Below, in pieces: positions 11,314 through 27,597 of a DNA stretch of 64,000 nt (position 1 is the stretch's first letter; each line of letters starts with the position of its first letter). A program made the translations under genes and the position numbers. The DNA comes from an uncultured Croceitalea sp. (lineage in GTDB: Bacteria; Bacteroidota; Bacteroidia; Flavobacteriales; Flavobacteriaceae), in contig CANNDD010000004.1 of assembly GCA_947503285.1 (NCBI GenBank), positions 434,001 through 498,000 on the forward strand, in the 5' to 3' direction. The notes under the pieces are model-generated. The model worked only from the letters and a program-made list of their open reading frames with translations, was not told where the DNA came from and searched no databases.

Positions 11314-13059
11314 TTAGATATTTATGGTAATCAGTTCTATAAGTTTGTTCTTAAGTGACAACCTAAACAGTTTATTTTCCACTCTTTCCGTTGCAAGCCC
11401 GAAATTGTGATATATCCTTACATTCAAAAAAGTTGGGGTCATTTTGGTATTTCCCAAATATTCAACATTTATTTTCCATTTTCCTTTAGATGAGTTTATG
11501 GGAATGAAATATTCTTTGGAAACGGGCGTTAACGGAAAATTAGTATTCCCTTGAGCCACTTCGTAAATACTGTTATCCCAATTAAAATAGTTCAAATTGG
11601 GGTCGACAAAATGAAAAACCAACGCCGCTTGGTCATCATTCCAATCTAAGACAATACGTGTTCCCCCTTCTTTGTCATCTCTGGATACATTTTTTACATC
11701 GTTTTTAAGTTGTTTTGATAACTGTTCAAATTCAGAAACAAATATTTCGTGGGACCATTCCGTTTCTGCAGTTAAATCACCTTGGTCTGTAAGTAAATTG
11801 TAGCGTTGTAAGAAGTTTAATGCCTTAAGTGCATCACCAGAAAGCCGATACGCATAATACAAATCAAGATATGATTGTGGTGAATGTGGCCATTTTTTGA
11901 ATTTATTCAAACAAACAGCTTTATAAGCAGCCACATTGTTGGTAATTTTAGCAATTTGGGCTAAAGCACGATAATATTCGTAGGAATCAATTTCTAGTTG
12001 GGCAGCTTCATCAAAAAGGGAAACAGAGAATGCATTACCCTTAAACTTGGTGTTAAAATGGTTAACCATATCCAAAACAAAGTAAGGGTTACTGCTATAC
12101 ACCTTTTTATGGTTTAAATAGATGGTTTTAGCCTCTTCAATTGCATTTACGCCTAATAAATCCTTTAAATACTTTGGCGAATTATCAATTTCTCGAGAAT
12201 AAGGGAGTGCTTTTAAATCATATGTGGTCTTACTGTTTTGCTTAGCCCGAAATTCCAGCTGTTTTTCCGTAGGGGAATAATTTGCAGATTTGGTATTGAT
12301 AACAAACACACCGCCAGCGCCTAACGAACCATAAACTGCTGTGCCGCCTAAACCGGGAATCCTAGCAATTCTTTTGATATTCGTAATATCTAAAAATCTG
12401 GGTGGGTCTTGATAAACAGTACCATCAACATCGTAAATTGCTTCCCTTGGATTTTGAATCGAACCTGTACCACGCATATAGATAACAGCATTGGGGTCAT
12501 CAGGCTGGACATTTATAGTGGGACTCCCTCGTAGTCTTACCTTAATTCCTGCAAACAAGCTTTGGAGCACCGTCAAAATATTGTTGGACGCAAAATTTAT
12601 TTGGTCCCCCTCCCTCACTTCTATGGCATATCCAGAGATTTTTTTATCCAACAGAGCGTATTTGGTTTTGACAATTTCTTTTTCTAGGTTATAGGCATCA
12701 AACAAAGCTTTCTGTTCTCGCAACCTGATTTGGTTTTTTTTGAGAACGACTTCATCTAAGATATTTGTTTCTGGGAATAATGCTACGTTCAATTCAGTTG
12801 GTATTTCGCCAGCTTTAAAAGTTTGTTCTTCCATCCCTTGAAAAGAGAAAATCAGAACAGTATCATCTTGCACTTGCAATTCATAAAAACCCTCATTGTT
12901 GGTATAAGTTCCTAAATCCTTATTTTCTTTTGCAAAAACATGGGCGCCAACCAAAGGTTGGTTTCCGTCTGTAACCTTCCCTTTCACCATTTTCACCGTT
13001 TGGGAAAACAACAACATTGGGGTCAGTAAACAACCGTAAAACCATTTCATACTACTCAT
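11314..13059 (-). CDS. Exported plug-TPR-DUF2135 protein (barrel-less TonB-plug family), member 1
   Basis: The 581-aa product has a signal peptide (MKWFYGCLLTPMLLFSQT), a carboxypeptidase-regulatory-like domain at about 22-95 (KVTDGNQPLVGAHVFAKEN), a TonB plug domain at about 150-265 with MRGTGSIQNP, EAIYDVDGTVYQD and VYGSLGAGGVFVINT, then a helical TPR-like stretch (~310-440) and a C-terminal ~110-residue beta domain with GGTRIVLDWNDDQ and INVEYLGNTKM, which I match to DUF2135/YfaP. There is no beta-barrel, so it is not a transporter. It is the most divergent of six paralogues. Its ATG follows the TAA of the upstream gene directly (TAAATG), so the two are translationally coupled. Confidence 0.8.
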   Translation of the reverse strand: MSSMKWFYGCLLTPMLLFSQTVKMVKGKVTDGNQPLVGAHVFAKENKDLGTYTNNEGFYELQVQDDTVLIFSFQGMEEQTFKAGEIPTELNVALFPETNILDEVVLKKNQIRLREQKALFDAYNLEKEIVKTKYALLDKKISGYAIEVREGDQINFASNNILTVLQSLFAGIKVRLRGSPTINVQPDDPNAVIYMRGTGSIQNPREAIYDVDGTVYQDPPRFLDITNIKRIARIPGLGGTAVYGSLGAGGVFVINTKSANYSPTEKQLEFRAKQNSKTTYDLKALPYSREIDNSPKYLKDLLGVNAIEEAKTIYLNHKKVYSSNPYFVLDMVNHFNTKFKGNAFSVSLFDEAAQLEIDSYEYYRALAQIAKITNNVAAYKAVCLNKFKKWPHSPQSYLDLYYAYRLSGDALKALNFLQRYNLLTDQGDLTAETEWSHEIFVSEFEQLSKQLKNDVKNVSRDDKEGGTRIVLDWNDDQAALVFHFVDPNLNYFNWDNSIYEVAQGNTNFPLTPVSKEYFIPINSSKGKWKINVEYLGNTKMTPTFLNVRIYHNFGLATERVENKLFRLSLKNKLIELITINI

Positions 13060-14271
13060 TTAATCAATCTTTTTTATTTCAAAACCATTATCTGGCAATA
13101 CAAATTTTCTAGTCATTTTAGGTTCCAATTTGGAGCCGGATTTTACCTTTTTAGTGAAAACTTGATATTCTTTTTTTGAAAAGGTCAATACATCGTTTCT
13201 TTTGGCATGAATCTTATAAAAACCTTCTTTGTTCGTCTTAGTGGTAATTTTGGTTCTTAAATTGAATACAAGAACATTTTCAATACCCTCTCCATTATCC
13301 GTCACTTTGCCAGAAATGACTTTTGCCCGTGCTTCTTTTCTTGCGACAAGTCTATCGTACCGATTAGCGAACTCTTCGGTAACGAGAAGTTCGGTTTCCA
13401 GTACGTAGGCCATGTTGATTGCTGATATTTTCACCCAATTACCTTGACTGGCATATCTTCTGTACGAACCAAACCTGTTGGAAGTAGCCAGTAATGCCAA
13501 AGCTGGTTTTTTCTTACCATATACCTCAACTAGCTCCAAGGCTAAAATGAAATTATCTTTAACGTATATATCGTAGGGGGTTAAATCTACTAAAACTGTT
13601 TCATATCCATGTTTAACCGTATAGAGGATGTTTTTTTTTGAATTATTTAAATTTGTTCGCGGTAGTCTATATAACCCTCCATCGTCATCATATATGTTTA
13701 TCCTTAGTAAAAGACTATCTGATTGGTTTTCCTTTATTTCGAATTGCAACTTATTTAGTTTACGCAAACCATCTTTGACAAGTATTCTTGTTGCAAGTTC
13801 CCCGCCAAGGGCAATGTCGTCTTTCCAGTAACCAATAACGTTTTCACCATAATTTCGATAACCGACCCCGTCAGGTATAAATACCTTTCCTTTATTTGAT
13901 ACAACTACCTCATCCAATGCCAAGTTGGTTGGTTCCATCAGAACATTTATGTTGGATAAGGAGCCATGTTCTATTACGTTTTTTATTGGAACTTCCTTTT
14001 TTTTATAACCCAATGAAGAAAACAAAAGAGTAGCTCCTAGATATTTATGGATATCCTCAATCTCCAAGGTGAATGATCCTTCGACATTGCTTACCGTACC
14101 AATGCCCTCATCAACAATTCCGATATTCACGAAGGGTATTCCTTGTTCCGTTTCGATATCAGTTACTTTACCCACAATACTAAGTTGACCTAACATTGCT
14201 TTCGAAAAAGATAAAAAAGCTAACGTCAAAAAAAGGCTTTTTAATGAAAGGGACAAGGAACATCCTATCAT
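13060..14271 (-). CDS. Exported protein with two carboxypeptidase-regulatory-like domains
   Basis: The 403-aa product has an N-terminal hydrophobic export signal ending near SKAMLGQ. The first carboxypeptidase-regulatory-like domain (KVTDIETEQGIPFVNIGIVDEGIGTVS) spans about 33-115. A central beta-rich domain follows (DSLLLRINIYDDDG, DIYVKDNFILALELVEVYG), then a second regulatory-like domain near the C-terminus (ISGKVTDNGEGIENVLVFN). No plug or catalytic motif is present. It is a clear paralogue of the gene at 14455-15591, and the two share the motif GYRNYGE and the central domain. It lies immediately upstream of plug protein 1 with no intergenic bases, which suggests their products work together. 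Confidence 0.75.
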   Translation of the reverse strand: MIGCSLSLSLKSLFLTLAFLSFSKAMLGQLSIVGKVTDIETEQGIPFVNIGIVDEGIGTVSNVEGSFTLEIEDIHKYLGATLLFSSLGYKKKEVPIKNVIEHGSLSNINVLMEPTNLALDEVVVSNKGKVFIPDGVGYRNYGENVIGYWKDDIALGGELATRILVKDGLRKLNKLQFEIKENQSDSLLLRINIYDDDGGLYRLPRTNLNNSKKNILYTVKHGYETVLVDLTPYDIYVKDNFILALELVEVYGKKKPALALLATSNRFGSYRRYASQGNWVKISAINMAYVLETELLVTEEFANRYDRLVARKEARAKVISGKVTDNGEGIENVLVFNLRTKITTKTNKEGFYKIHAKRNDVLTFSKKEYQVFTKKVKSGSKLEPKMTRKFVLPDNGFEIKKID

Positions 14272-14409
14272 TCCATAGAAATTAAATTGTTAGTTTCAAT
14301 ATACGAATCTAAAAAGCTATCTAAAGTATTTTCTATACAGTAAATCTTGTTAAAAATCATTCATAATTGCTTATACCCCAAAATAAACAACCTTCAAGCC
14401 GATAGTTAT

Positions 14410-14454
14410 GACACTATTGAAAAGCAGTTTAATCTTGGGGTCTTGCAAGTTTGA
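14410..14454 (+). pseudogene. Relic of the 3' end of an acyl-CoA carboxylase beta-subunit gene
   Basis: Read in the plus frame, these bases encode DTIEKQFNLGVLQV and a stop. The last 12 residues are identical to the C-terminus of the intact carboxylase ending at 11298, yet several codons differ synonymously (GTC TTG CAA GTT TGA here, GTA TTA CAG GTG TAG there). The similarity fades upstream of the Asp codon. The relic abuts the stop codon of the convergent gene at 14455 with no gap, much as the intact carboxylase lies 15 bases from its own convergent neighbour. It is a fragment left by recombination or insertion, not a functional gene. Confidence 0.8.
14425..14441 (+). repeat. 17-bp direct repeat, right copy (in the carboxylase relic)
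   Basis: Perfect match to 11269-11285. Together they flank a block of about 3.1 kb carrying two genes. Confidence 0.9.
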
Positions 14455-15591
14455 TTATTTTGTTTTCAAAATAATATTTTGGGTGATTTTATCGCCCACC
14501 CTAAAACTGAAGTCATGAAATCCGTCTTTTGTAAACGTTAGGATGTTCCCTTTTTTTGCAGGTATGATGTAGCGGCCCTTATCATCTGACGCAACAGTTT
14601 CTTTGGTAGTCGTATTGAAAACCGAAACCCCAGCGATCATTTGACCCCGTACAATTACAAAACCTGAAACCGTCTTTTGCTTTTTCTCCTTTTTCGCTTT
14701 TCTTCGTTCAAAACGTTGTGCGGTCTTTTCTGAGACCATCAATTCAGATGCTACATAATACGCCATGTTCACATCAGAGAAATGTTCCCACTTATCTTGA
14801 CTGGCATACTTTCTATACGAACCGTATCCATTGAGGGTTGCGGATAGAACCAGACCCAGCCCCTCTTCTCCATAGACCTTCAATAGCTCTAAGGAAACTA
14901 TAAAATCATCTTTAACGTAAATGTCATAGGGGCGTAAATCTACCTTGACCATACGGTCATCTTTTTGAACGGTACAGAGGATATTCTTACCCGAAGTGTT
15001 CAGGTTTGTGTCTGGCCTACCTAGATTGCCATCATCTTCATAAATATTTACCCGAAGCAGTAGACTGTCTGAGGGGTTATGCCATACCTCAAACTCAAAC
15101 CTGTTCAACCTTCGAAGGCCGCTTTTGGCAATTATCTTGGTACCCAATTCCCCCCCAAGTGCAATATTATCCTTCCAATAGCCATAATTCTTTTCCCCAT
15201 AGTTTCTATAGCCAATATTATCGCTGATGAACCGCTCCCCCTTATTGGATACCACGACTTCCTTTAATTCCATTATAGTAGGTTTCAATAGAATCTCAGG
15301 ATACTCGTTATAGACGATCTCTGCTTTGGAAACTGGAATATACTTGGTTTCGTAACCGATAGCGGAAAAAAGAATCTCAGCATCATCTTTGTAAACCTTG
15401 GACTTCAGGTTCAAATGGAACAATCCATCTTCATCACTGACCGTACCAATACCGACATCGACGATACCAATATTAACATAGGGAATGGGTTCTTTGGTTT
15501 CCGCATCCAAGATTCGACCTTTGAAGTCCTCTTGGGCCGATAATGTATTTGAAATCAAATAAACGGCCAAAATAAAAGCTTGCTTTTTCAA
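14455..15591 (-). CDS. Exported protein with two carboxypeptidase-regulatory-like domains (paralogue)
   Basis: The 378-aa product has a signal peptide (MKKQAFILAVYLISNTLSAQ), a regulatory-like domain at about 22-105 (GRILDAETKEPIPYVNIGIVDVGIG), a shared central beta domain (GYRNYGEKNYGYWKDNIALGG; SDSLLLRVNIYEDDG) and a C-terminal second regulatory-like domain (VSGFVIVRGQMIAGVSVFN). It is collinear with the 403-aa protein at 13060-14271. A Lys/Arg-rich helix (FERRKAKKEKKQK) precedes the last domain. No enzyme motif is visible. Its stop codon touches the carboxylase relic, and its ATG is 18 bases from the stop of the small secreted protein upstream, so they are probably cotranscribed. Confidence 0.75.
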   Translation of the reverse strand: MKKQAFILAVYLISNTLSAQEDFKGRILDAETKEPIPYVNIGIVDVGIGTVSDEDGLFHLNLKSKVYKDDAEILFSAIGYETKYIPVSKAEIVYNEYPEILLKPTIMELKEVVVSNKGERFISDNIGYRNYGEKNYGYWKDNIALGGELGTKIIAKSGLRRLNRFEFEVWHNPSDSLLLRVNIYEDDGNLGRPDTNLNTSGKNILCTVQKDDRMVKVDLRPYDIYVKDDFIVSLELLKVYGEEGLGLVLSATLNGYGSYRKYASQDKWEHFSDVNMAYYVASELMVSEKTAQRFERRKAKKEKKQKTVSGFVIVRGQMIAGVSVFNTTTKETVASDDKGRYIIPAKKGNILTFTKDGFHDFSFRVGDKITQNIILKTK

Positions 15592-15609
15592 TTCTTTCTG
15601 ATTTCGATT

Positions 15610-15996
15610 TTATAAGTTTTTAATGATTCTCATTTCCCTATAGGAAGTACCATAGGTAACGGTCAATACCTCAGAGTTTTTTTTATTTAAAAAAGGATGG
15701 TTTGATTCAATATGTCCTTCTAGTTTTGGGTATTTCACATTTATTCTTCCACGGTCATCTCCCCAATAAACAGCTATCAAGACAGCTATATTTAAAGTCC
15801 TTTTAGATGGTTTGGAAATACCCTTAAAATGGCGATACGCATTAGGCACCTTAACTTCTCCCCCCATAAAGTATTTATTAGAGCTGATCAACTCTGAATC
15901 ATTGCTTGATTGCCCAAACGATAGCCCATAAAAAAGAAAAAATAACAAAAGAATACAGGTGCTTTTGTTCCCTTTAATTCGTTTGTTTAATTCCAT
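15610..15996 (-). CDS. Small secreted protein, unknown function
   Basis: The 128-aa product has a charged start and a strong signal sequence (CILLLFFLFYGLSFGQ), leaving a mature part of about 95 residues. The mature sequence contains ISSNKYFMGGEVKVPNAYRHFKG and ends TYGTSYREMRIIKNL. I recognise no family. It is the first gene of a short minus-strand group that continues with the 378-aa regulatory-domain protein. Its AT-rich composition is like that of the adjacent genes. Confidence 0.62.
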   Translation of the reverse strand: MELNKRIKGNKSTCILLLFFLFYGLSFGQSSNDSELISSNKYFMGGEVKVPNAYRHFKGISKPSKRTLNIAVLIAVYWGDDRGRINVKYPKLEGHIESNHPFLNKKNSEVLTVTYGTSYREMRIIKNL

Positions 15997-16115
15997 GCCT
16001 CAAAGCAAAATACCAATACCTTAATTTAGTAAAAGGACTATAAAAATACCAACGTTTACAACCAAAACTTCACATCAGGTTTTCATTTCTTTATTTTTAA
16101 AGGTACGCATGATTG

Positions 16116-18626
16116 CTATTCAACGCTAAGCTGCCCTACGGACTGTACCTTAAATAGTTCTTGGTTGACATTTTTCAAGCTAACTTTGAATACCTTGGTT
16201 TTCTTACGCTGGCTCTTTGAACCATAGTTGTAATAGACCGTTGCCTTCAAGTAAGTGGGTGTCAAACTCTTATTGCCCAAATAATTGAGGTTTACACTCC
16301 ACGTGCCTGGTAAAGACCCATCTAACAGGTATTCGGTTACATTGTAGCCAAAGTCCTTCTCAAGATAAATCGTTTCCGAATTATCCATCAAACTATGCTT
16401 CCAAGTGTAATATTGATTTCCTGGATTCACAAATTGCAACTCAAATTCGGCCTCGCTATCGTTCCATTCAAAGACCAACCGGGTCCCTTTGAAATCCTCT
16501 TCGGCGATGTAAAGCTTCTTTACTTTTTTGGCATTCACTACGGCTTCACCATTCAGACTCAAAAGATTATTGAACTCCCGCTCCATTATGGGGCCAAAGC
16601 CCACCGTATCTTGCTTCATGAAACCCTGTTCGATTAAATAAGCGTAACGTGTATATATCGTAGCGGCGTCTTTCGATTCGTTTAGATTGCGATAGCTATT
16701 CGCCATATCCATATAGCTTTGCGCATAATTGGGGCGAAGGAGAAAAATTTCCTTATACGCCCCATTCGCCTGAGCGTATCGCCCTTGTCTTTCATATTGA
16801 TACGCCAAAGCCTTTAAAAGCACTGCATTGTTTTCAAAAAGACCATATTTGGCCTTGATAAAGGCATCGGCAAAATCTAGCTCGTCCCATTTATCTGAAA
16901 AATAGGAATAGGCATCCAAATAAAAGTATGGGGAACTTTTGTATTGAGCATCATAGGTATCAAAAACCGCTTTGGCATCTTCAAGGGAAGTACTTGCTTC
17001 CAATTCTTTTAAATAGGTCGCTTTATTTCTGTTGATATCGGCTTTGGTCAGTATTTTCCCATTTATAAAATTATTTCTCAAACGTGCCTGATCAACCAAG
17101 GATTTGTTACCTGGACTACCCGCTACGGTATTGATTACAATGACCCCTCCACTGCCAGCGGAACCGTAGGTGCTGGTCAAGGCCAGATTATTGAGTATTG
17201 CAACCCTTTCAATATTACCTGTATTTATCCAGATGGGTACATCAGTGAAAATTTGACCGTCTACGTCAAATATTGCTGTGGCCACATTGTTGATGGAATT
17301 CGCACCCCTTATCAAGACCGAACCCCCTACGCCCAAACAATCACCAATCACTGTAATTCCCGGAAACCTGGTCCTTAATAAGTCGAGGATACAAAGATTT
17401 ACAGAGGTAATATCTTCTTCAGTTATTACACGAATTTTACCCGCTGCCCTATCACCATCTAAATACCCAAAAGCAGTGCGTATAATATTTTTTCTACTAT
17501 TGTAATCTTCTTCCAAATCTTTTTGTGACATCCGTTTGCTCGATTCTACGGTTACCTCTTCCAACTCAGTTACTTCTGGAATCATCACCGGATTTAAAAA
17601 ACGTGTTACATCCTCAACCTTAATGGTAACCGTTTTCAAACCGATATAAGAAAACGTAATCTCATCGCCTGGATTGGCCTTGATTTTATATTTGCCCTTA
17701 TCATTGGTTCTTGTTGCCGTATTTGTTGCTTCAATTGAGATATTTACATCTGGTATAGGGGTCTTTCCATCAGTTACCGTACCTGAAATCAATTTTTTGT
17801 TTTGATTTCGTCTTTTGTTCTCATTTAAATATTGCCTTCCCAAATCAGGGCTTTTAATAAAATTGTCCCTGAGCCTTGCCCTATCCACGATCTTATTACC
17901 AAATGTGGTCCCCGAAAAGGTATTGATGACGATGACGCCACCGACATCCGCACCGTATTTTCTAGTCAACGCAGAACCTGCAAAAACTGCTACCCGTCTG
18001 ACATGCTCAATAGGAATGATATGAGGGTCCTGAATCAGCCCATCTACCTCAATAACGGTCTGGCCTACTGCCGAACGGATCGCTATCGGACCGGGTAATG
18101 CGCAACTCCCCTCAACCCGGAGTCCTGTAAAATTCAATCGTAACAAATCTAAAAGACAGGCACCATTTGCCTTAAAGTCATCTGCAGTCAATACCTGAAT
18201 ATCACCTATGGTCTTTTTGGTATCTAAAAGGCCAAAGCCTGTCATTACGATGTTCTTGTTAAAAGCATATTCTACCCGCAATTCTTTCTGCGATAATTTC
18301 TTTTTCTTTTGAACCGTGACTTCATCCAATTCAGTGACTTCGGGAAACATCTCTAGGTTCAGTATGCGGGTCACATCTTCGACCTTTATCGCTATTGTCT
18401 TCATACCGATAAAAGAAAAACGGATTTGATCGCCTGTCGCAACCGCAATTTTATACTTACCCCCACTATCGGTTACTGTTGTGATATCTTTGGTGAGATT
18501 GACTACTTTTATATTTTCTAAAACACTTACGTCTTCGAATACATAACCCGATAAAAAACGTTTTTCTTGCGCCTCAACGCTTATTAAAAACAAAAACAAG
18601 AGTGGAAAAAGAAAAATGTTTTTCAT
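16116..18626 (-). CDS. Exported plug-TPR-DUF2135 protein with two tandem plug modules, member 2
   Basis: The 836-aa product is about 250 residues longer than its paralogues because the N-terminal module is present twice. It has a signal peptide (1-20), module A (regulatory-like domain 23-105, plug 140-240 with VIEVDGLIQD and YGADVGGVIVINT), module B (regulatory-like domain 277-360, plug 395-502 with AIFDVDGQIFTD and YGSAGSGGVIVINT), TPR-like helices (about 570-665) and a DUF2135-like domain (715-817, RLVFEWNDSEAEF and NYLGNKSLTPTYL). Each plug carries a Cys pair with identical spacing (157/175 and 412/430). Module A has lost the RG of the IRG motif (IAIRSAVG). No barrel is present. Confidence 0.82.
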   Translation of the reverse strand: MKNIFLFPLLFLFLISVEAQEKRFLSGYVFEDVSVLENIKVVNLTKDITTVTDSGGKYKIAVATGDQIRFSFIGMKTIAIKVEDVTRILNLEMFPEVTELDEVTVQKKKKLSQKELRVEYAFNKNIVMTGFGLLDTKKTIGDIQVLTADDFKANGACLLDLLRLNFTGLRVEGSCALPGPIAIRSAVGQTVIEVDGLIQDPHIIPIEHVRRVAVFAGSALTRKYGADVGGVIVINTFSGTTFGNKIVDRARLRDNFIKSPDLGRQYLNENKRRNQNKKLISGTVTDGKTPIPDVNISIEATNTATRTNDKGKYKIKANPGDEITFSYIGLKTVTIKVEDVTRFLNPVMIPEVTELEEVTVESSKRMSQKDLEEDYNSRKNIIRTAFGYLDGDRAAGKIRVITEEDITSVNLCILDLLRTRFPGITVIGDCLGVGGSVLIRGANSINNVATAIFDVDGQIFTDVPIWINTGNIERVAILNNLALTSTYGSAGSGGVIVINTVAGSPGNKSLVDQARLRNNFINGKILTKADINRNKATYLKELEASTSLEDAKAVFDTYDAQYKSSPYFYLDAYSYFSDKWDELDFADAFIKAKYGLFENNAVLLKALAYQYERQGRYAQANGAYKEIFLLRPNYAQSYMDMANSYRNLNESKDAATIYTRYAYLIEQGFMKQDTVGFGPIMEREFNNLLSLNGEAVVNAKKVKKLYIAEEDFKGTRLVFEWNDSEAEFELQFVNPGNQYYTWKHSLMDNSETIYLEKDFGYNVTEYLLDGSLPGTWSVNLNYLGNKSLTPTYLKATVYYNYGSKSQRKKTKVFKVSLKNVNQELFKVQSVGQLSVE

Positions 18627-18699
18627 AAAAGGGTTTTTTTAATATGATTGGAAAAAGACCTTTATACTACTGAAAGTAAATCATCAAGAAAATCGACTT

Positions 18700-20430
18700 C
18701 TATTCCGTCACAATACCCCCAACGGATTGTACCTTGAAAAGTTCTTGGTTCACGTCTTTTAAGGTCAATTTAAAGACCTTGGTCTCTTTTCTCTGACTGC
18801 TAGACCCATAATTGTAATACACGGTAGCTTTCAAATACGTAGGTGTCAGACTCTTATTGCCCAAATACTTCACATTCACCCCCCATGTACCCGGTAAGGA
18901 ACCACCTAACAGGTATTCGGTAACGTTATAACCGAAATCTTTCTCACGATAAACGGTTTCAGGATTATCCATCAAACTATGCTGCCAAGTGTAGTATTGG
19001 TTTTCGGGGTTCACGAACTGAAGGTCAAATTCTGCCTCACTATCGTTCCATTCAAAGACCAATCGCGTACTCTCGAACTCATCTTGGGCCGTATAGAGCT
19101 TCGCAGACTTCGTCGAATTGACCAGCGCATTACGGTTCAAACTCAAAAGATTATTGAACTCCCGCTCTAATAAGGGACCAAAAACTATGCTATCTTGTTC
19201 CATAAAACCTTCTTGCACCAAGTAGTCGTATCTTGCGTAAATGGCAGCTGCCTGTTTGACTTGATTAAGATCTCGGTAACTATTGGCGATATCCAGATAA
19301 CTTTGGGCATAATTCGGTCGAAGTATAAAGACCTCTTTCAATACTGCATTGGCCTTTTCATAACGTCCCTGCTCTTCATAATGATAGGCCAAGGCTTTTA
19401 AAAGAACTGGGTTGTCTTTAAAAAGCCTGCTGTTAGTATCGATAATGGCATCTGCATACTCGCTATTATTCCACTTTTCAGTAAAATAAGTGGCCATATC
19501 CATAAAAAAATAGGGTGAGCTGGAATATGTGTTTTTATATTTTTCAAAAACCGCAGTTGCAGCCTCAAAGTTGCCACTGGCCTCCACTTCTTTTAAATAG
19601 GTTGGCTTATTCCTATCCAAATCCGTTTTGGTAAGTACCTTTCCGCTGACATAATTATTTCTTAATCGAGCACGATCTACAATATTATCCAATCTAGGAG
19701 TACCTGAAATGGTATTGATCACAATAACACCGCCCGCTCCAGTGCTTCCATATGAAACGGTTGTGGCCAAATTATTAAGTACAGCTATTCGTTTAATATT
19801 TCCTAAATCAATCCAAACTGGGATATCCGTAAAAATTTGACCGTCAACATCAAAGACCGCAGGTGGGGATTGGGTAATTGAGCCAGCACCACGAACAAAA
19901 ATTCTTCCATTTAAAATACTGACCCCAGGAAACCTACCCGTTGTTAATAAACTAATAATATCCAAATTCACCGATGTGATCTCACTGTCATCAATAATCC
20001 TTACGTTTCCAGGCGCCCTATCGGCATCTAAATAGCCAAAAGCGGTGCGGATAATATTCTTATTCAGTACATAATCCATTTCCAAATCCTTTTGTGATAT
20101 CCTTCTGCTATTCTGTACGATAACTTCATCCAACTCCGTAATATCGGGAACCATTATCGGATTTAGAATTTTAGTCACATCTTCCACCTTAATGAAAATG
20201 GTCTTCAATCCCGTATACGAGAATTTGAGCTTGTCTCCTGTTTCCACTTGAACCTCATACTTACCCTCACCATCGGTTACCGTACTAATATCTTTTTCAA
20301 TAATGGAGATATTGACATTTTCAATAGGTGATTTTCCATCACTGACCTTACCCACAAGGGTACGTTTCTGTTGCCCTATGGCAACAACGAATAGTAGCAA
20401 AAAGAACGGGAGTAAAATGGCGTTTTTCAT
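18700..20430 (-). CDS. Exported plug-TPR-DUF2135 protein, member 3
   Basis: The 576-aa product is read from the ATG at 20430, which gives the signal peptide MKNAILLPFFLLLFVVAIGQ shared with its paralogues; an ATG 57 bases upstream only adds a non-signal extension. Domains are regulatory-like at about 22-95, plug at 125-245 (FVRGAGSITQSP, VFDVDGQIFTD, YGSTGAGGVIVINT), TPR at about 320-400 and DUF2135-like at 455-558. The plug lacks both cysteines found in members 2, 4 and 6. The C-terminal half is nearly identical to member 4, but the plug differs strongly. It is separated from members 2 and 4 by about 70-110 bases, without obvious terminators. Confidence 0.82.
   Translation of the reverse strand: MKNAILLPFFLLLFVVAIGQQKRTLVGKVSDGKSPIENVNISIIEKDISTVTDGEGKYEVQVETGDKLKFSYTGLKTIFIKVEDVTKILNPIMVPDITELDEVIVQNSRRISQKDLEMDYVLNKNIIRTAFGYLDADRAPGNVRIIDDSEITSVNLDIISLLTTGRFPGVSILNGRIFVRGAGSITQSPPAVFDVDGQIFTDIPVWIDLGNIKRIAVLNNLATTVSYGSTGAGGVIVINTISGTPRLDNIVDRARLRNNYVSGKVLTKTDLDRNKPTYLKEVEASGNFEAATAVFEKYKNTYSSSPYFFMDMATYFTEKWNNSEYADAIIDTNSRLFKDNPVLLKALAYHYEEQGRYEKANAVLKEVFILRPNYAQSYLDIANSYRDLNQVKQAAAIYARYDYLVQEGFMEQDSIVFGPLLEREFNNLLSLNRNALVNSTKSAKLYTAQDEFESTRLVFEWNDSEAEFDLQFVNPENQYYTWQHSLMDNPETVYREKDFGYNVTEYLLGGSLPGTWGVNVKYLGNKSLTPTYLKATVYYNYGSSSQRKETKVFKLTLKDVNQELFKVQSVGGIVTE
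18715..19650 (-). repeat. Near-identical block, copy in member 3
   Basis: The DNA coding for the TPR and DUF2135-like parts matches 20555-21490 with only scattered differences, in contrast to the diverged plug-coding DNA next to it. This fits recent duplication or gene conversion limited to the 3' half. Confidence 0.8.
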
Positions 20431-20539
20431 AAAAAGGATTTTTAAAATTAAACCTGTGGAAACTTGTTTAGATTTATCAAACATCATACCAGAACCAAAT
20501 ACTTAAAGGTACCATATTCCAGTCCCTTCGCAATGCCTA

Positions 20540-22288
20540 TTACTTCGTGGCAATACTGCCAACGGATTGTACCTTGAACAGTTCTTGGTTCACGTCTTTT
20601 AAGGTCAATTTAAAGACCTTGGTCTCTTTTCTCTGACTGCTGGACCCATAATTGTAATATACCGTTGCCTTTAAATATGTAGGTGTCAGACTCTTATTGC
20701 CCAAATACTTCACATTCACCCCCCATGTACCTGATAAGGAACCATCTAACAGGTATTCGGTAACGTTATAACCGAAATCTTTCTCACGGTAAACGGTTTC
20801 GGGATTATCCATCAAACTATGCTTCCATAGGTGATATTGGTTTTCAGGGTTCACGAACTGAAGGTCAAATTCCGCCTCACTATCGTTCCATTCAAAGACC
20901 AATCGCGTTCCCTCGAACTCTTCTTGGGCCACATACAATTTGCTTGATTTTTGGGCCGTAATCACCGTATTACGTTTCAGACTCAATAGATTATTGAACT
21001 CCCGTTCTAATAAGGGACCAAAAACTATGTTATCTTGTTCCATAAAACCTTCTTGCACCAGGTAGTCGTATCTTGCGTAAATGGCAGCGGCCTGTTTGAC
21101 TTGATTAAGATCTCGGTAACTATTGGCAATATCCAAATAACTTTGGGCATAATTCGGTCGAAGTATAAAGACCTCTTTCAATACCGCATTGGCCTTTTCA
21201 TAACGTCCCTGCTCTTCATAATGATAGGCCAAGGCCTTTAAAAGTACTGGGTTGTCTTTAAAAAGCCTACTGTTATTCTCGATGATGGTATCAGAGAAAT
21301 CGGTATTGTTCCACTTTTTAGTAAAATAAGTGGCCATATCCATAAAAAAATAGGGTGAGTTTGAATATGGAGTTTGGTATTTTTCGAAAACAGCTACTGC
21401 AGCCTCAAAGTTGCCACTGGCCTCCAATTCTTTTAAATAGGTTGGCTTATTCCTATCCAAATCCGTTTTGGTAAGTACCTTTCCGCTTAGATAATTGTTC
21501 TTTAAACGGGCTTGATCAGCCATTTCGTTATTTCTTTGCCTTGGATGATAGCCAACGGTATTAATAACAACAACGCCACCGTTGCCTAATGTTCCATATG
21601 GTGTGGTGGTAGCCAAATTGTTTAATATTCCCACACGCCTTATTGCACCATAACTTAACCAAACTGGAGCATCCCTAAAAATTTGCCCATCAACATCAAA
21701 TATTGCAGAAGCTGGATTGTTAATTGATCCACTACCCCTCATGAAAACCTCGCCTCCTTTTTGGCAATCGCCGCTCACCCTTACCATCGAGAATTGACCT
21801 CGGAGCATATCAAGGATACACAAATCTATTGCGCTGATATCCCCTTCATTTAAAACACGAATATTACCTGCTGCCCTATCTCCATCTAAATACCCAAAAG
21901 CAGTACGTATGATATTTTTTCTGATGTTATAATCCGCTTCCAAGTCTTTTTGTGACATGCGCTTACTATTTTTCACGACCACCTCATCCAACTCGGTAAC
22001 ATCAGGGACCATTATCGGGTTGAGAATTTTAGTCACATCTTCTACCCTAATAAAAATGGTCTTAAAACCTATATATGAAAACCTAATCTTATCCCCCGTT
22101 TCCACGTGAACCTCATACTTACCCTCACTATCGGTTATCGTGGTAATTCCCTTTTCGACAATGGAGATATTAACGTTTTCAATAGGTGATTTTCCATCAC
22201 TGACCTCACCCACAAGGGTACGTTTCTGTTGCCCTATGGCAACAAAGAACAATAGTAAAAAGAACGGAAGTAAAATGGTTTTTTTCAT
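20540..22288 (-). CDS. Exported plug-TPR-DUF2135 protein, member 4
   Basis: The 582-aa product has a signal peptide MKKTILLPFFLLLFFVAIGQ, a regulatory-like domain at about 22-95, and a plug at 130-255 with the Cys pair in DLCILDML and VSGDC, FMRGSGSINNP, IFDVDGQIFRD and YGTLGNGGVVVINT. The TPR-like region with RYEKANAVLKEVFILRPNYAQSY follows, and then the DUF2135-like domain (RLVFEWNDSEAEF). An unusual basic insert (YHPRQRNNEMADQ) follows the plug. The C-terminal half and the signal region are almost the same as member 3, so the two are a recent duplicate pair with exchanged or fast-evolving plugs. The extracytoplasmic location is clear; the function is unknown. Confidence 0.82.
   Translation of the reverse strand: MKKTILLPFFLLLFFVAIGQQKRTLVGEVSDGKSPIENVNISIVEKGITTITDSEGKYEVHVETGDKIRFSYIGFKTIFIRVEDVTKILNPIMVPDVTELDEVVVKNSKRMSQKDLEADYNIRKNIIRTAFGYLDGDRAAGNIRVLNEGDISAIDLCILDMLRGQFSMVRVSGDCQKGGEVFMRGSGSINNPASAIFDVDGQIFRDAPVWLSYGAIRRVGILNNLATTTPYGTLGNGGVVVINTVGYHPRQRNNEMADQARLKNNYLSGKVLTKTDLDRNKPTYLKELEASGNFEAAVAVFEKYQTPYSNSPYFFMDMATYFTKKWNNTDFSDTIIENNSRLFKDNPVLLKALAYHYEEQGRYEKANAVLKEVFILRPNYAQSYLDIANSYRDLNQVKQAAAIYARYDYLVQEGFMEQDNIVFGPLLEREFNNLLSLKRNTVITAQKSSKLYVAQEEFEGTRLVFEWNDSEAEFDLQFVNPENQYHLWKHSLMDNPETVYREKDFGYNVTEYLLDGSLSGTWGVNVKYLGNKSLTPTYLKATVYYNYGSSSQRKETKVFKLTLKDVNQELFKVQSVGSIATK
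20555..21490 (-). repeat. Near-identical block, copy in member 4
   Basis: Partner of the block at 18715-19650. It covers the DNA for the TPR and DUF2135-like regions of member 4. Confidence 0.8.
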
Positions 22289-22364
22289 ATATCAAGTTTT
22301 ATGAATTAGATTCATGCCTATTACATTAAAATCATAGCCTATTTTAGATTAAGAATATCGATTC

Positions 22365-24155
22365 TTATTTTGTTACAATGCTACCAACGGATTGTACCTT
22401 GAACAGTTCTTGGTTCACATCTTTTAAGCTAAGTTTAAAGACCTTGGTCTCTTTTCTTTGACTTCTAGCTCCATAATTGTAATACACGGTAGCTTTCAAA
22501 TATGTAGGCGTCAAACTTTTATTGCCCAAATACTTCACGTTAACCCCCCATGTGCCTGGCAACGAACCATCAATCAAATATTCTTTGACACTATAGCCAA
22601 AATCTTTTTCGCGGTAAATGGTTTTTTCGTTGTCGGCCAAGCTGTGTTTCCATTTGTAATATTGGTTTTCAGGGTTCACGAACTGAAGGTCAAACTCCGC
22701 CTCGCTATCGTTCCATTCAAAGACCAATCGCGTTCCCTCGAATTCTTCTTGGGCCACGTAGAGCTTCCCAGACTTTGTGGAGTTGACCACAGCATTGCGG
22801 TTCAATACCAATAAGTTATTGAACTCCCGTTCCATTACGGGCCCAAAGCCTATACTGTCTTGCTCCATGAAACCCTCTTGTACCAAATAATCGTATCGTG
22901 CGTAAATGGAAGCCGCTTGCTTGACCTCATTCAAACTTCGGTAACTGTTGGCCATGTCCATGTAACTTTGGGCGTAATTGGGCCTTAGTATGAATACTTC
23001 CTTAAAAATGGCGTTTGCCTTTTCGAAACGTTGCTGCTCTTCATAGCGATAGGCCAATGCCTTTAGCAAGACCGGGTTGTCATCAAATAATGCGAAATTT
23101 TCATTGATTATGGCATCGGCATAATCCATATCATCATGGTTTTCTGAAAAATAGGTGTACGCATCCAAATAGAAGTATGGGGAACTGTAGTATGATGATT
23201 CATACTGGTCATATACCTTTTTCGCGTCATCAAAAGAAGTGCTGGCCTCCAATTCCTTCAGGTAGGTAGGATTATTATTAGCTACCTCTGCCCTAGTGAG
23301 TACTTTGGTATTTACATAGTTATTCTTGAGTCTGGCGCGGTCTACGATCTTATCATTTTGTGGCGTACCTGAAAAGGTGTTGATCACAATGACACCACCT
23401 GCACCAATGCTTCCATATCTGGTTGTGGTAGCCAGATTGTTCAATATGGCTATCCTTTTAATGTTTCCAATATCGATTGGAGGGGGAATATTGGTGAAAA
23501 TCTGTCCATCAATATCAAAAATAGCGGCCCTTTGATTGGTGAGTGAACCACGCCCCCTTATAAAAACACCACTTGAAGCTATGGATGCTTGATTAATCGG
23601 TGATACCTCTGCCAAATTATTGGCCCCAAATAAATTACCAGTTACTTGAACCCCGGGAAACCTGTTTTGCAATAATGCAAAGACGTTCACATTTACAGGG
23701 TTTATCTCACTATCATCCAAAGTTCTTACGTTACCAGCTGCTCGATCGGCATCTAAATAACCAAAAGCGGTGCGGATAATATTCTTATTCAGCACATAGT
23801 CTTCCTCTAAATCTTTTTGGGAAATTCTTCGACTGCTTTTTACGGTAACCTCTTCCAACTCCGTCACATCTGGCACCATTACCGGGCTTAGAAAGCGTGT
23901 AACATCTTCTACTCGAATTGAAATGGTTTTCATTCCCGTATAGGCAAACTGTAACACATCACCGGTTTCGGCCTTAATCGTGTATTTTCCATCGGCATCG
24001 GTTACCGTTGAAATTTGTTTTTCTTTAATATAGACGTTTACATTTTCTATTGGTGCTTGGTTGTCGGTAACCTTACCTGACACGATTCGTTGTTCTTGGG
24101 CACTGCCTATGAAACCGAAAAGAAACACGGCAACAAGTGGTAAAAGATTTTTCAT
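22365..24155 (-). CDS. Exported plug-TPR-DUF2135 protein, member 5
   Basis: The 596-aa product is read from the ATG at 24155 (signal peptide MKNLLPLVAVFLFGFIGSAQ); the longer frame begins at a TTG and adds 20 residues with no signal character. Domains are regulatory-like at about 22-95 (KVTDNQAPIENVNVYIKE), plug at 125-265 with an insertion of about 20 residues (NNLAEVSPINQASIASSG) before FIRGRGSLTNQR, then IFDIDGQIFTN and YGSIGAGGVIVINT, a TPR-like region and a DUF2135-like C-terminus. The plug cysteine pair is missing. A terminator separates it from member 6 upstream, so it probably has its own promoter in 24156-24275 and may lead a transcript running through members 4-2. Confidence 0.82.
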   Translation of the reverse strand: MKNLLPLVAVFLFGFIGSAQEQRIVSGKVTDNQAPIENVNVYIKEKQISTVTDADGKYTIKAETGDVLQFAYTGMKTISIRVEDVTRFLSPVMVPDVTELEEVTVKSSRRISQKDLEEDYVLNKNIIRTAFGYLDADRAAGNVRTLDDSEINPVNVNVFALLQNRFPGVQVTGNLFGANNLAEVSPINQASIASSGVFIRGRGSLTNQRAAIFDIDGQIFTNIPPPIDIGNIKRIAILNNLATTTRYGSIGAGGVIVINTFSGTPQNDKIVDRARLKNNYVNTKVLTRAEVANNNPTYLKELEASTSFDDAKKVYDQYESSYYSSPYFYLDAYTYFSENHDDMDYADAIINENFALFDDNPVLLKALAYRYEEQQRFEKANAIFKEVFILRPNYAQSYMDMANSYRSLNEVKQAASIYARYDYLVQEGFMEQDSIGFGPVMEREFNNLLVLNRNAVVNSTKSGKLYVAQEEFEGTRLVFEWNDSEAEFDLQFVNPENQYYKWKHSLADNEKTIYREKDFGYSVKEYLIDGSLPGTWGVNVKYLGNKSLTPTYLKATVYYNYGARSQRKETKVFKLSLKDVNQELFKVQSVGSIVTK

Positions 24156-24273
24156 AGCTTTCTTTTTAAAATTTTGTTTAGAAGTTACAAAGAAGTTAAA
24201 ATAGGGCTTTAACAATTAACAGAGTTTAACAGTACAATACTCTTAAATGATTGTAATACTATTAATTTAGGTT

Positions 24274-24302
24274 GAAAAAAATACCCCTGTGAAGGGGTAT
24301 TT
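24274..24302 (-). terminator. Intrinsic terminator after member 6
   Basis: A ten-base-pair stem AAATACCCCT/AGGGGTATTT has a 4-nt loop. Read on the minus strand it is followed by a run of seven T. It lies 16 bases past the stop of member 6 and splits the island into two transcription units. Confidence 0.88.
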
Positions 24303-24317
24303 CGATTTCAGGTGTTT

Positions 24318-26180
24318 TTATCGTAATACTAATTTGCTACCAACGCTCATTTGAAACAATTCGTAAGGGGCATTTTTAAGTGTCATTTTAAAGACTTTTG
24401 TTTCCTTTCTTTGGGAATAACTTCCGTAATCATAATACACCGTTGCCTTCAAATAAGTAGGTGTCAGACTCTTGTTACCCAAGTAGTTCACATTAATCGT
24501 CCATGTACCTGGCAAAGCGTTATCAATTAAATATTCCGCGGTATTGTAACCGTATTCTTTCTCTTTTCGAATCATCCCCGCATTGTCCGCAAGACTGTGT
24601 TTTAACAGTGTATATTGTCCACCCGGATTTACGAATTGCAACTCAAATTCCGCCTCGCTATCATTCCATTCAAAGACCAATCGGGTTCCTTTGAAGTCTT
24701 CGTCGGCAATAAACAATCCTGCCGCTTTTTCACCTTTGACCAAGGCATTTTTTTCCAACAAAAGAAAATTGTTGTATTCCCGCTCGAAGATAGCTCCAAT
24801 GCCAATGGAATCCTTTTCCATAAAACCTTGTTCAATCAAATAGTTATATCGCGTGTACATTGCGGCTGCCTGTTTGACATCCCTTAACTCCCTATAACTA
24901 TTTGCCAAGTCTAGATAAGACTGCGCATAATTGGGCCTTAACTTTAGCACCTTTTTAAACAAATTATTTGCCTTTTCAAATTCACCCTGTTCTTGATATT
25001 GGTATGCCAATGCCTTTAAAAGTACTGGATTTTGATTCCATAAATTACTATTGTCTTCCACTATCCCATCGGCATACTCCCCTTCATTCCATTTTTCCTT
25101 AAAGTACTTCTGTATATCAAGGGTAAAGAACGGAAGGCTGGCATATTGACCCGCATACTTTTGGTACGTTGTTTTAGCCTCTTCCAAAGTAGTACTCGCA
25201 TAGATATCTTGTAAATAAGTAGGCCAATTACGTCTAACTTCATCGGAGCCCAGAATATTAGACGCAACAAAATTATTTCGCAAACGGGCCTGATCGACAA
25301 TTTTATTTGATTGGGGGGTTCCGCTTATCGTATTAATAACAATAACACCGCCAGCGCCAGCGCTACCGTAATTAGTTGTTGTCGCAAAATTGTTAAGGAT
25401 AGCGATGCGCTTGATATTCTTAATATCCAACCAAATCGGAGGGTCATTGATAATCTGACCATCAATATCAAAAATTGCTGACCTGGGGTTGAACAACGAA
25501 CTAGCGCCCCTAATGAATACCTTTCCTTCATTAAGACTACCGCTAAGACCCGTACCTACCGGGTTCAAACCTACCACACCAGGGTCGTTGACATTTCTAC
25601 CTGTCAAATTGTTGAGTTCATTTGCTATGCCCTCATCACGGCCAAAAGCACCCATGCAAGTGCCTTGCACCCGAACGCCTGAAAATTCATTTCGCAATAG
25701 GTCTAAAATACAAATTGCAACAGGATTGATTTCTTCTTCATTCAAAAACCTAATATTACCTGGTGCCGTGGCAGCATTCAAATACCCGAATGCCGTGCGG
25801 ATCAAGTTCATATTCCTTGGATATTCAGAAGCAAGTTCACTTTGTGATTTTCTATTGCTACCCGTCACGGTTACTTCTTCAAGTTCTTCAATATCAGGAA
25901 CCATGTCAACGTTTAATATGCGTGTGACATCCTCAATCTTGATCTCTACGGCTTTCATACCTTGATAACTGTATCTTAAAGTGTTACCCATGGGCACTTG
26001 AACACGATATTTACCTAAATCATCTGTAGACGTATTCGCAGACGTACCTAAAACGGTTATGGTAACCCCAGACATGGGCGAACGACCATCGGTAACCACG
26101 CCAGAAACCGTTTTCATCGTATCTTGGCCAAAACTCACTAGGCCAACGAAAAACAAAAGAATCAAAGAATTTTTCATCAT
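24318..26180 (-). CDS. Exported plug-TPR-DUF2135 protein, member 6
   Basis: The 620-aa product opens with two consecutive ATG codons; the second (26177) matches the paralogues. It has a signal peptide (MKNSLILLFFVGLVSFGQD), a regulatory-like domain at about 24-95, and a plug with the Cys pair (AICILDLL, VQGTC) followed by the longest insertion of the family, about 45 Asn/Gly-rich residues (with ELNNLTGRNVNDPGVVG), before FIRGASSLFNP, IFDIDGQIINDP and YGSAGAGGVIVINT. A TPR-like region and a DUF2135-like domain complete it. It is the first gene of the island, transcribed alone and closed by a strong terminator. Confidence 0.82.
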   Translation of the reverse strand: MMKNSLILLFFVGLVSFGQDTMKTVSGVVTDGRSPMSGVTITVLGTSANTSTDDLGKYRVQVPMGNTLRYSYQGMKAVEIKIEDVTRILNVDMVPDIEELEEVTVTGSNRKSQSELASEYPRNMNLIRTAFGYLNAATAPGNIRFLNEEEINPVAICILDLLRNEFSGVRVQGTCMGAFGRDEGIANELNNLTGRNVNDPGVVGLNPVGTGLSGSLNEGKVFIRGASSLFNPRSAIFDIDGQIINDPPIWLDIKNIKRIAILNNFATTTNYGSAGAGGVIVINTISGTPQSNKIVDQARLRNNFVASNILGSDEVRRNWPTYLQDIYASTTLEEAKTTYQKYAGQYASLPFFTLDIQKYFKEKWNEGEYADGIVEDNSNLWNQNPVLLKALAYQYQEQGEFEKANNLFKKVLKLRPNYAQSYLDLANSYRELRDVKQAAAMYTRYNYLIEQGFMEKDSIGIGAIFEREYNNFLLLEKNALVKGEKAAGLFIADEDFKGTRLVFEWNDSEAEFELQFVNPGGQYTLLKHSLADNAGMIRKEKEYGYNTAEYLIDNALPGTWTINVNYLGNKSLTPTYLKATVYYDYGSYSQRKETKVFKMTLKNAPYELFQMSVGSKLVLR

Positions 26181-26250: not shown

Positions 26251-27597
26251 TCAATTAGTTACATGATTTTTTAAACGTGGAATCAATAGAAGATCCGTTT
26301 GTCTTCCATTGACGTAACGAAATCCATTTTTTCCATAAAATCCAGCTTCCTCCAACATAATCCTGATATCCCTCTTCCACTCTGGTACGGTTATCGTCGT
26401 ATTTAATTCAATGGCATATACCGTATTTGGGTTTAAGGGATAATTCTCGCCATCATCCTTCATAACGCCCCCTTGGGCATCCCACATACCTATAGTGGTT
26501 CCGGCCGAATGTCCATAAGACCCCAATGGATGGGTATAAATTGCCGGTCGAAGGCCAGCGACCTTGGCTTCAGCCAAAGATTCCGCTAAAATTTCATTGC
26601 CCGTTCTGCCCTGAATCATATTTTTCGTCAAAAAATCTTGAACCCTATTACCCTCTTTCAAGCCTTTTATCAAAAAATCGGGCGCTTTCTTTTCGTTGGG
26701 TCTTAACACATATGCCAGTTCTTGACAATCGGTATTCAACCTCAAATAGGTAATGCCAAAATCGCAATGCACCAAATCCCCTGGCATGATAACCATATCA
26801 TCAGGCCTTCCAGAAAAGGAATATAAATGCCCTACCAGTTCCATACTCGTTCGTTGTACATCCACTGTAGGGTGAAACCATGTCGCTAGGCCCAAATCCG
26901 TGACTTTTTGGCGAAACCACCATTCTACTTCCGTCGTGGTAGTTACACCGGGCGTTATCACTTTTTCTGAAAAAGCTTCTTTAATAATATCATGGGTAAT
27001 ACTTACCAATTGATTGTAGATGACCATTTCGCGATCTGTTCTGGTCTCAATCCACCGAACAGCCAATTGCTCGGCAGAAACTACTTTCTTATGCATTGCC
27101 TTGGGCAAATTTTGAAAAAATGCATCGTAATCCGTTTTGTTCAACCCATCGGCTATATTGTGGTCCTTAGAAAAGTTTAATCCTATTTTTTCTGGATTGC
27201 GTTCTTGGATCAATTGGATCAACCGCTTCCATTGGTCTGGTTCCTTTTCTTTGTCCCAAGCCGAGGTGATACTCTTGCCAACGTTATAACGCGCCACGGC
27301 CAGCTTTTCAATGGTATTGGCTTTCTTATTCCTATAAAACAACAAGATGGTTCTTCTTCTGGCATTGAGCCATGTCGCGGGGAGCATCGTTCTCAAAACG
27401 GGATCTTCATTATACTCCCTAGAAATAACAATCCACATGTCAATTTCCGATTTATCCATCAAAACGGGCAACAAGGTATTGAAACGATCTTCTAAAATTT
27501 CATCGATTACCCTAGCCCGCTCTTTTTCAGGAAGGATTTGCTGTGCTTTCGAAAAAAAAGGAGCTATAAAGATTAGGATAAAAAGTATTCTTCTCAT
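26251..27597 (-). CDS. Exported M24-family metallopeptidase (Xaa-Pro aminopeptidase-like)
   Basis: The 448-aa product has a signal peptide MRRILFILIFIAPFFSKAQ. The N-terminal half is a creatinase-like domain. The C-terminal pita-bread domain keeps metal-ligand candidates in order: Asp in HCDFGITYLRL, Asp in NTDCQ, His in THPLGSYGHSAG, Glu in YAIELNTT and Glu in IMLEEAG. The family removes N-terminal residues preceding proline. Export suggests it trims periplasmic or external peptides, which would suit an organism with a hydroxyproline operon nearby, but that link is inference. It ends 71 bases past the start of island member 6, in a separate unit. Confidence 0.87.
   Translation of the reverse strand: MRRILFILIFIAPFFSKAQQILPEKERARVIDEILEDRFNTLLPVLMDKSEIDMWIVISREYNEDPVLRTMLPATWLNARRRTILLFYRNKKANTIEKLAVARYNVGKSITSAWDKEKEPDQWKRLIQLIQERNPEKIGLNFSKDHNIADGLNKTDYDAFFQNLPKAMHKKVVSAEQLAVRWIETRTDREMVIYNQLVSITHDIIKEAFSEKVITPGVTTTTEVEWWFRQKVTDLGLATWFHPTVDVQRTSMELVGHLYSFSGRPDDMVIMPGDLVHCDFGITYLRLNTDCQELAYVLRPNEKKAPDFLIKGLKEGNRVQDFLTKNMIQGRTGNEILAESLAEAKVAGLRPAIYTHPLGSYGHSAGTTIGMWDAQGGVMKDDGENYPLNPNTVYAIELNTTITVPEWKRDIRIMLEEAGFYGKNGFRYVNGRQTDLLLIPRLKNHVTN

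Follow-up and report, generated by a model that had tools for sequence, protein, structure and literature searches.

The array and its domain content

The window analysed here, a stretch of 64,000 nucleotides from an uncultured Croceitalea sp. of the Flavobacteriaceae, holds a gene array on its minus strand (11314..26180) that includes six genes for exported-type proteins, given in the list of open reading frames (ORFs) as 620, 616, 582, 595, 836 and 581 amino acids (aa) long. All six have a signal-peptide-like start (judged by eye), then a head made of a carboxypeptidase-regulatory-like domain (CarbopepD_reg) of the type forming the N-terminal extension (NTE) of SusC and of a SusC-like TonB-receptor plug, and finally a carrier made of TPR-like helices and a C-terminal DUF2135-like domain. 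This order, proposed in the initial annotation of the locus, was borne out by profile searches and by a structural model. The first array gene encodes the exported 620-aa protein (24318..26180, minus strand as for all array features below; ORF list and profile searches), and is followed by those for the 616-aa member (22365..24215; likely true start at the ATG at 24155, giving 596 aa), the 582-aa member used for modelling (20540..22288), the 595-aa member (18700..20487), whose nearest paralogue is the 582-aa protein and whose plug is divergent, the 836-aa member (16116..18626), with two CarbopepD_reg-plug units before the carrier, and the divergent 581-aa member (11314..13059), 30% identical to the 620-aa protein. 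The other five members share 30 to 56% identity with the first. For the 616-aa and 595-aa ORFs, translation probably begins downstream of the listed start, the signal-peptide-like stretch beginning at residues 21 and 20, respectively (by eye).

Pfam searches placed CarbopepD_reg_2, the NTE-type model, above cut-off in all six proteins. The Plug model exceeded its cut-off in the 836-aa protein only (E 5.2e-9), matched three others weakly (E 0.0018 to 0.0062) and gave no match at E ≤ 1 in the 582-aa and 581-aa proteins. DUF2135 (PF09906, gathering score 22 bits) was reached in two proteins (22.9 and 22.1 bits) and scored 16.1 to 17.6 bits in the other four; among ten relatives scanned, six scored 40 to 72 bits. 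A TPR model matched above cut-off in the 620-, 582- and 595-aa proteins and below it in two others, with no TPR match in the 581-aa protein. For all six, the best stretch against the SusC/RagA model TIGR04056 fell within positions 1 to 293 of its 981. The transmembrane beta-barrel is absent, and the plug is followed instead by some 320 residues that form helices and a beta domain: no barrel family matched any of the nine array ORFs in Pfam, nor the six plug proteins in Pfam or NCBI-type (TIGR) model scans, as the initial annotation had stated. Its further claim that these proteins cannot be transporters holds for the proteins by themselves, because the barrel is missing. Neither a SusD family nor a TonB gene was found among the nine ORFs in the Pfam scan.

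The middle domain is a TonB-receptor plug

The assignment of the plug is based on structure prediction, profile-profile comparison and a family profile rather than on the Pfam model. We modelled the 582-aa member with AlphaFold, choosing it for its lack of a Pfam Plug match at E ≤ 1 and supplying 111 aligned family proteins. The mean predicted local distance difference test score (pLDDT) was 91.4, and 88.8 for the plug region modelled alone. The model comprises the CarbopepD_reg domain (about residues 21–97; 21998..22228), the plug (about residues 126–250; 21539..21913), TPR-like helices (about residues 291–450; 20939..21418) and a C-terminal beta domain with a sub-threshold DUF2135 match (about residues 455–575; 20564..20926). 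When the whole model was compared with the PDB using Foldseek, the NTE domain of a SusC (9hfj) came first, followed by BamP. The remaining matches included TPR structures and, at rank 37, SusC 8aa4_A (117 columns, root mean square deviation 2.3, E 0.0028). With the plug alone, TonB-dependent receptors occupied all of the best 50 of 80 matches, the top one being a SusC (E 3e-6, TM 0.63 by query). An hhalign comparison of 59 family plugs with 12 plugs of the genome's own receptors gave a probability of 98.4%, and the family profile retrieved from the PDB a SusC at E 1.1e-25 and, over the plug, the colicin I receptor (1.9e-7) and FepA (5.9e-7). The plug core residues RG, DG, YG, GG and NT are near-invariant over the 111 proteins. 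The SusC-like plug recognised in the initial annotation is thus supported by four approaches in agreement, and the middle domain of the array proteins is a TonB-receptor plug.

Conservation and selection

Relatives were searched with the TPR-DUF2135 part, and the best 80 of 173 matches fell in 75 loci titled with Flavobacteriaceae genera or, for a few, only Bacteroidetes or Bacteroidia. These loci hold 168 family members, 161 of them uncut by a contig end: 133 of 550–640 aa, 22 of 650–760 aa and six of other lengths. A plug profile drawn from the family itself (59 rows, all of them members) recognises 159 of the 161, the two others being fragments of 287 and 240 aa. An independent profile made from the genome's receptor plugs matches 43 of the 133 members of 550–640 aa and 22 of the 22 of 650–760 aa. 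Shortened copies, possibly decaying members of the array, occur at L114 (287 and 415 aa) and L143 (240 aa).

The SusC-like N-terminus of these proteins could evoke decayed SusC genes or frameshifts in the assembly. Against such an origin, the plug is kept in 159 of 161 uncut relatives, the 155 members of the two main length classes all have 307 to 334 residues after it, and one neighbourhood is kept in many species. Moreover, ratios of nonsynonymous to synonymous substitution (dN/dS), pooled over 16 close pairs from different loci (32 were tried, the rest being too diverged, and the pairs share taxa), are 0.153 for the NTE domain, 0.051 for the motif described below and its linker (the lowest), 0.109 for the plug, 0.122 for the second linker, 0.108 for the TPR and 0.067 for the DUF2135-like domain. 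The array proteins are under purifying selection. We therefore reject decay, whose likelihood we consider negligible, in agreement with the initial annotation.

Chromosomal site and origin of the array

The array occupies a site that is constant across the clade, with menC, CPBP, menE and an M24 peptidase on one side and an acyl-CoA carboxylase, Gfo and ABC-F on the other; the clusters of neighbours were computed, while their names are presumed from resemblance. In the window, the upstream flank is a 448-aa protein (26251..27597, minus strand), which we take to be the M24-type peptidase, and the downstream flank a 542-aa protein (9670..11298, plus strand), presumably the carboxylase. The recurrence of the array in other Flavobacteriaceae, which the initial annotation proposed to survey, is thus established; its term "island" is not to be read as a mobile element. 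Copies were counted in the 55 of 75 named loci that have both the M24 and the carboxylase genes on the stretch: 11 have one member, 22 two, 13 three, seven four and two five, with none outside the M24-carboxylase interval in these loci, and the window has six. All copies lie on the same strand in each of the 75 loci. A member of 650–760 aa is present in 21 of the 55 loci; this class has an extra, VWA-like N-terminal part (Pfam VWA weak, in one of seven scanned), and 12 of its 22 members carry a metal-site-like DxSxS pattern near the start.

Two distant genomes (L043 and L044) have, in a neighbourhood with menC, CPBP, menE and the carboxylase, one gene of 1126 or 1105 aa encoding VIT, a weak VWA match, CarbopepD_reg, Plug, TPR and DUF2135; in L043 the M24 gene is located on its opposite side. 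Since this VIT-plug-TPR-DUF2135 gene sits in the same neighbourhood, the genes of the window, in whose six plug proteins Pfam found no VIT, look like VIT-less derivatives of it. The simplest history would be a loss of VIT, then of the VWA-like part, together with tandem duplication, the direction being presumed.

The array also comprises a 378-aa protein (14455..15591) and a 403-aa protein (13060..14271), each with two CarbopepD_reg domains and without a plug, as well as a 128-aa ORF (15610..15996) with a signal-peptide-like start (by eye) and no family above cut-off. A gene with two CarbopepD_reg domains is found in 31 of the 55 loci. The signal-peptide-like start of 14455..15591 is at a TTG, and its first ATG would truncate the N-terminus (272 aa). 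The 1005-aa protein of L042 links the two gene types of the array, as its first part is 37% identical over 278 residues to the 378-aa protein and is followed by CarbopepD_reg, Plug and TPR. These three ORFs and the two units of the 836-aa protein had escaped the initial annotation, as had the fixed neighbourhood, the VIT-bearing relatives and, described below, the mosaic of heads and carriers, the TonB-box-like motif and the relatives with a TonB_C-like domain.

Mosaic heads and carriers

Two copies of Croceitalea dokdonensis (L092) differ at synonymous sites by 0.01 to 0.05 in the carrier and by 0.64 to 0.70 in the head (0.70 in the plug), and for the window pair 20540..22288 and 18700..20487 the values are 0.22 to 0.29 (carrier) and 0.66 (plug). 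Permutation gave p 0.0005 in each case. Ten pairs, chosen after inspection of paralogue identities, were tested for such a plug-carrier difference; two further pairs were positive (p 0.004 and 0.045) and six negative (p > 0.2). After removal of near-duplicates, the nearest relative was in the same locus for 21 of 80 DUF2135-like domains, 19 of 80 TPR, 14 of 80 NTE and 6 of 80 plugs. At equal plug identity, within-locus carriers were more alike than between-locus ones at p < 0.05 in two of five bands. The six pairs without a difference and the 0.3–0.4 plug-identity band, where the trend is reversed and within-locus carriers are less alike, weigh against a general rule. The pattern is compatible with occasional recombination by which carriers are made uniform and the diversity of heads persists, and is not valid for every pair. 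Positive selection on the plugs was considered and is unsupported, the pooled plug dN/dS of the 16 pairs being low; because synonymous sites differ as well in the paralogue plugs that are most divergent, recombination between copies explains their divergence better.

Long relatives and the TonB_C-like domain

A profile of the carrier of long relatives was searched in three overlapping genome samples. Matches came from 27 of 247 genomes at the level of the phylum (E ≤ 1e-20), from 22 of 395 at that of the class (E ≤ 1e-40) and from 57 of 397 at that of the family (E ≤ 1e-55), the phylum and family counts including short members. The returned loci provided 65 long relatives, and 62 linkers preceding the TPR after three fragments were dropped. 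VIT was checked in some of them; of ten proteins scanned, five have it. Nothing was recognised among their neighbours, alpha-2-macroglobulin included, in gene lists that were only inspected. Within the 62 linkers, Pfam (E ≤ 0.001) detected CarbopepD_reg_2 in 30, Plug in 20 and TonB_C in two, with a third TonB_C match at E 0.0023; the remaining linkers have partial plug-like pieces (by eye) or none of these domains. In the linkers of L240, L237 and L246, plug-like pieces stand before, not after, the TonB-box-like motif described below (by eye). The TonB C-terminal-like domain of these three relatives (L188, L250 and L254) is located in 400-aa linkers, in the slot where others have the plug. It scores 26.1 bits in L188 (cut-off 24.6), 22.7 in L254 and, more weakly, 18.8 in L250, and the other two align to L188 at 36 and 46% identity.

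Plugs without a barrel also exist elsewhere in the genome of the window. A DUF4139/DUF4140 protein (L067:856-2883; G000:C4, about 130 kb) has CarbopepD_reg and Plug inside its DUF4139 match, and another protein (L064:1-2058; G000:C9, about 141.8 kb), weakly matching MG2, has its Plug close to the C-terminus, with about 99 residues beyond it. Barrel-less plugs are thus not confined to this array. A short open frame of 135 aa (G000:C2:69699-69929) has a sub-threshold plug match.

A TonB-box-like motif and possible functions

In the SusC protein Bt1763 the NTE is immediately followed by the TonB box (VDEVVV). Deleting this box or changing it to alanines causes growth defects like those of SusD loss, and the box is flexible in the nuclear magnetic resonance structure of the NTE (PMC7782687, part of the text). 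The array proteins have a conserved LDEVVV at the same position, namely residues 100–105 of the 582-aa protein (21974..21991), with LEEVTV in the 620-aa (25866..25883, from the translation) and 616-aa (23841..23858) proteins, LDEVIV in the 595-aa (20116..20133, from the translation), LDEVTV in unit 1 (18312..18329, from the translation) and LEEVTV in unit 2 (17547..17564) of the 836-aa, and LDEVVL in the 581-aa protein (12742..12759, from the translation). Over the 111 aligned proteins, the L is kept in 111, the E in 98, a V in 110 and the last V in 103. As a six-residue stretch the motif comes 30th of 556 in conservation, and 6th of 425 when the DUF2135-like region is set aside. Residues 102–107 of the model, overlapping the motif, form one of its two segments with pLDDT below 50.

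Four features together suggest that the array proteins are soluble and periplasmic: the signal-peptide-like start, a Gln invariant in the 111 rows and close to the predicted cleavage site, the lack of a lipobox (by eye) and the lack of a secretion-sorting model among the profile matches. We tentatively propose that they are soluble periplasmic adaptors docking on TonB, a reading that we prefer while judging it somewhat short of even, and in which TonB binding is putative. The LDEVVV segment would, like the SusC box, bind the TonB C-terminal domain; the plug would be a specificity head or a force-responsive module, differing between tandem copies, and the more constant carrier would hold a common envelope partner. 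The pull or the occupancy of TonB might then be coupled to that partner, or TonB might be shared out among clients. TonB_C matches occur in three ORFs of the genome, 238 (C1:220600), 247 (C1:96478) and 620 aa long. The proposal is favoured by the place and conservation of the motif, the low dN/dS of motif and linker, the low pLDDT at the motif alongside the flexible box of SusC, the plug fold, the domains that fill the slot in long relatives and the divergent heads on similar carriers. In addition, 11 of the 32 linkers without a recognised NTE, from nine genera, have the motif, for 0.24 expected from shuffles.

Several observations weigh against this proposal. Conservation is higher than at the motif in some stretches of the DUF2135-like domain, of the TPR and of the plug, and 21 of 132 family members miss its simple pattern, many having LDNVTVT-like variants. 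The motif also follows CarbopepD_reg in proteins of the same genome without a plug match, for example a DUF5686 protein (L163), L175 and the 403-aa protein of the array (L176), so that it is no specific sign of TonB binding. Among the long relatives it is lacking in six of the 30 NTE-bearing linkers (present in 24). For the linkers without a recognised NTE, the motif pattern was chosen after inspection and shuffling preserved nothing but composition; a TonB_C linker is among the 11 that have it, and these motifs may be relics of a lost plug. TonB_C is above cut-off in one linker only, the array has no TonB gene, and neither the plug-carrier difference nor the within-locus likeness of carriers is general (see above).

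The occurrence of the motif in plug-less proteins would suit a scaffold independent of TonB, where NTE and plug are only stable folds that bind other proteins or ligands, and the motif is simply what ordinarily ends a CarbopepD_reg domain in Bacteroidota; heads that vary between some copies, as a binding surface might, would suit it too. Such a scaffold leaves unaccounted a motif that is well conserved despite overlapping a low-confidence segment of the model and recurs in linkers without a recognised NTE, as well as TonB_C-like domains in the same slot of three long relatives, and we hold it to be tenable although doubtful.

The near-invariant core of the plug could also point to a decoy or trans-acting plug, in which the free domain enters or blocks SusC-type barrels, or titrates TonB. 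However, all 24 above-threshold PF00593 barrels of the genome, the only barrel family searched, share an ORF with a plug match (one below its cut-off), and the array itself has no barrel; these findings leave the titration half untouched, and we regard the whole as unlikely. A single sub-threshold PF00593 barrel (C5:83592) is without a plug match. A trans-plug for plug-less PF00593 barrels is hence unsupported. The initial annotation had offered a role as decoy, adaptor or recognition module for TonB or barrel proteins, as an inference by its own account; a trans-plug role finds no support among the PF00593 barrels of this genome, and a role at TonB or barrel proteins keeps the same conjectural standing.

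BamP, a periplasmic subunit of the beta-barrel assembly machinery (BAM) with a loop in BamA (PMC12611786, part of the text), suggests a last alternative, namely BAM accessory proteins whose CarbopepD_reg docks on BamA, the array aiding outer-membrane protein assembly. BamP (9n2d_E) is the second structural match and also a profile match, in both cases via the CarbopepD_reg domain, and the array contains the two-CarbopepD_reg genes. On the other hand, the array proteins score 17.5 to 55.7 bits (the 128-aa ORF giving no score) for a BamP cut-off of 230, and plug and TPR have no counterpart in the 249–251 residues of BamP, which makes this role improbable. Membership of BamP (NF053692) is rejected by score, the best of the genome being 142.6 bits, outside the array.

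Beyond the array, the proposal of TonB-docking adaptors could be extended to a widespread Bacteroidota class of soluble periplasmic proteins in which both halves of the TonB coupling were adopted as interchangeable heads borne by a TPR-DUF2135 carrier, with receptor NTE-box-plug modules in many and the TonB C-terminal domain in few, often behind VIT. We consider this broader view conceivable, though rather speculative; if true, TonB would act on, or be regulated by, the cell's own non-transporter proteins.

Comparison with known systems

TonB is the motor link for outer-membrane transporters, and Bacteroidota rely heavily on SusCD uptake. The array proteins resemble SusC/RagA (TIGR04056) in having the NTE domain, the TonB-box position and the plug in the same order, with profile, fold and hhalign matches, and differ from it by the absence of the beta-barrel, by their TPR and DUF2135-like carrier and by the lack of SusD in the array. 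With the long Bacteroidota VIT-TPR-DUF2135 proteins, for which no published name was found in the open-access literature, they share a homologous carrier, whereas the window genes are devoid of VIT and of the VWA-like part. BamP has a related CarbopepD_reg domain and itself lacks plug and TPR. A Riemerella competence protein, compared by description only, had no evident link to the array. PorE joins a CarbopepD-type domain to CpoB/TPR, TolB and Pal parts, and a TonB/TolA-like force transduction with coupling via the CarbopepD-type domain has been suggested for it (PMC12204202, part of the text). Compared by description only, it is similar to the array proteins in combining such a domain with TPR, and no plug is described in that part of its account. 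Colicins are soluble partners of TonB. With ferredoxin and FusB there is a precedent for the binding of a TonB homologue by a soluble protein (PMC13253070). Both come from outside the cell, whereas the array proteins are the cell's own exported proteins.

No open-access title or abstract that we found describes barrel-less plug proteins of this type, and DUF2135 is likewise unmentioned there. The new elements are the conserved LDEVVV at the TonB-box position, the mosaic tandem copies and the TonB_C-like domain in the plug slot of long relatives. Should the TonB-docking proposal be true, host-encoded barrel-less proteins with the TonB-facing parts of a receptor would be a new type of TonB client or regulator, and their natural soluble plug domains would be useful to test the effect of TonB on a plug without the barrel. 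The different heads on near-identical carriers in some tandem copies make a test of head specificity simple. Taken together, this conserved array of receptor-plug proteins in marine flavobacteria suggests, without proof, a class of soluble TonB partners.

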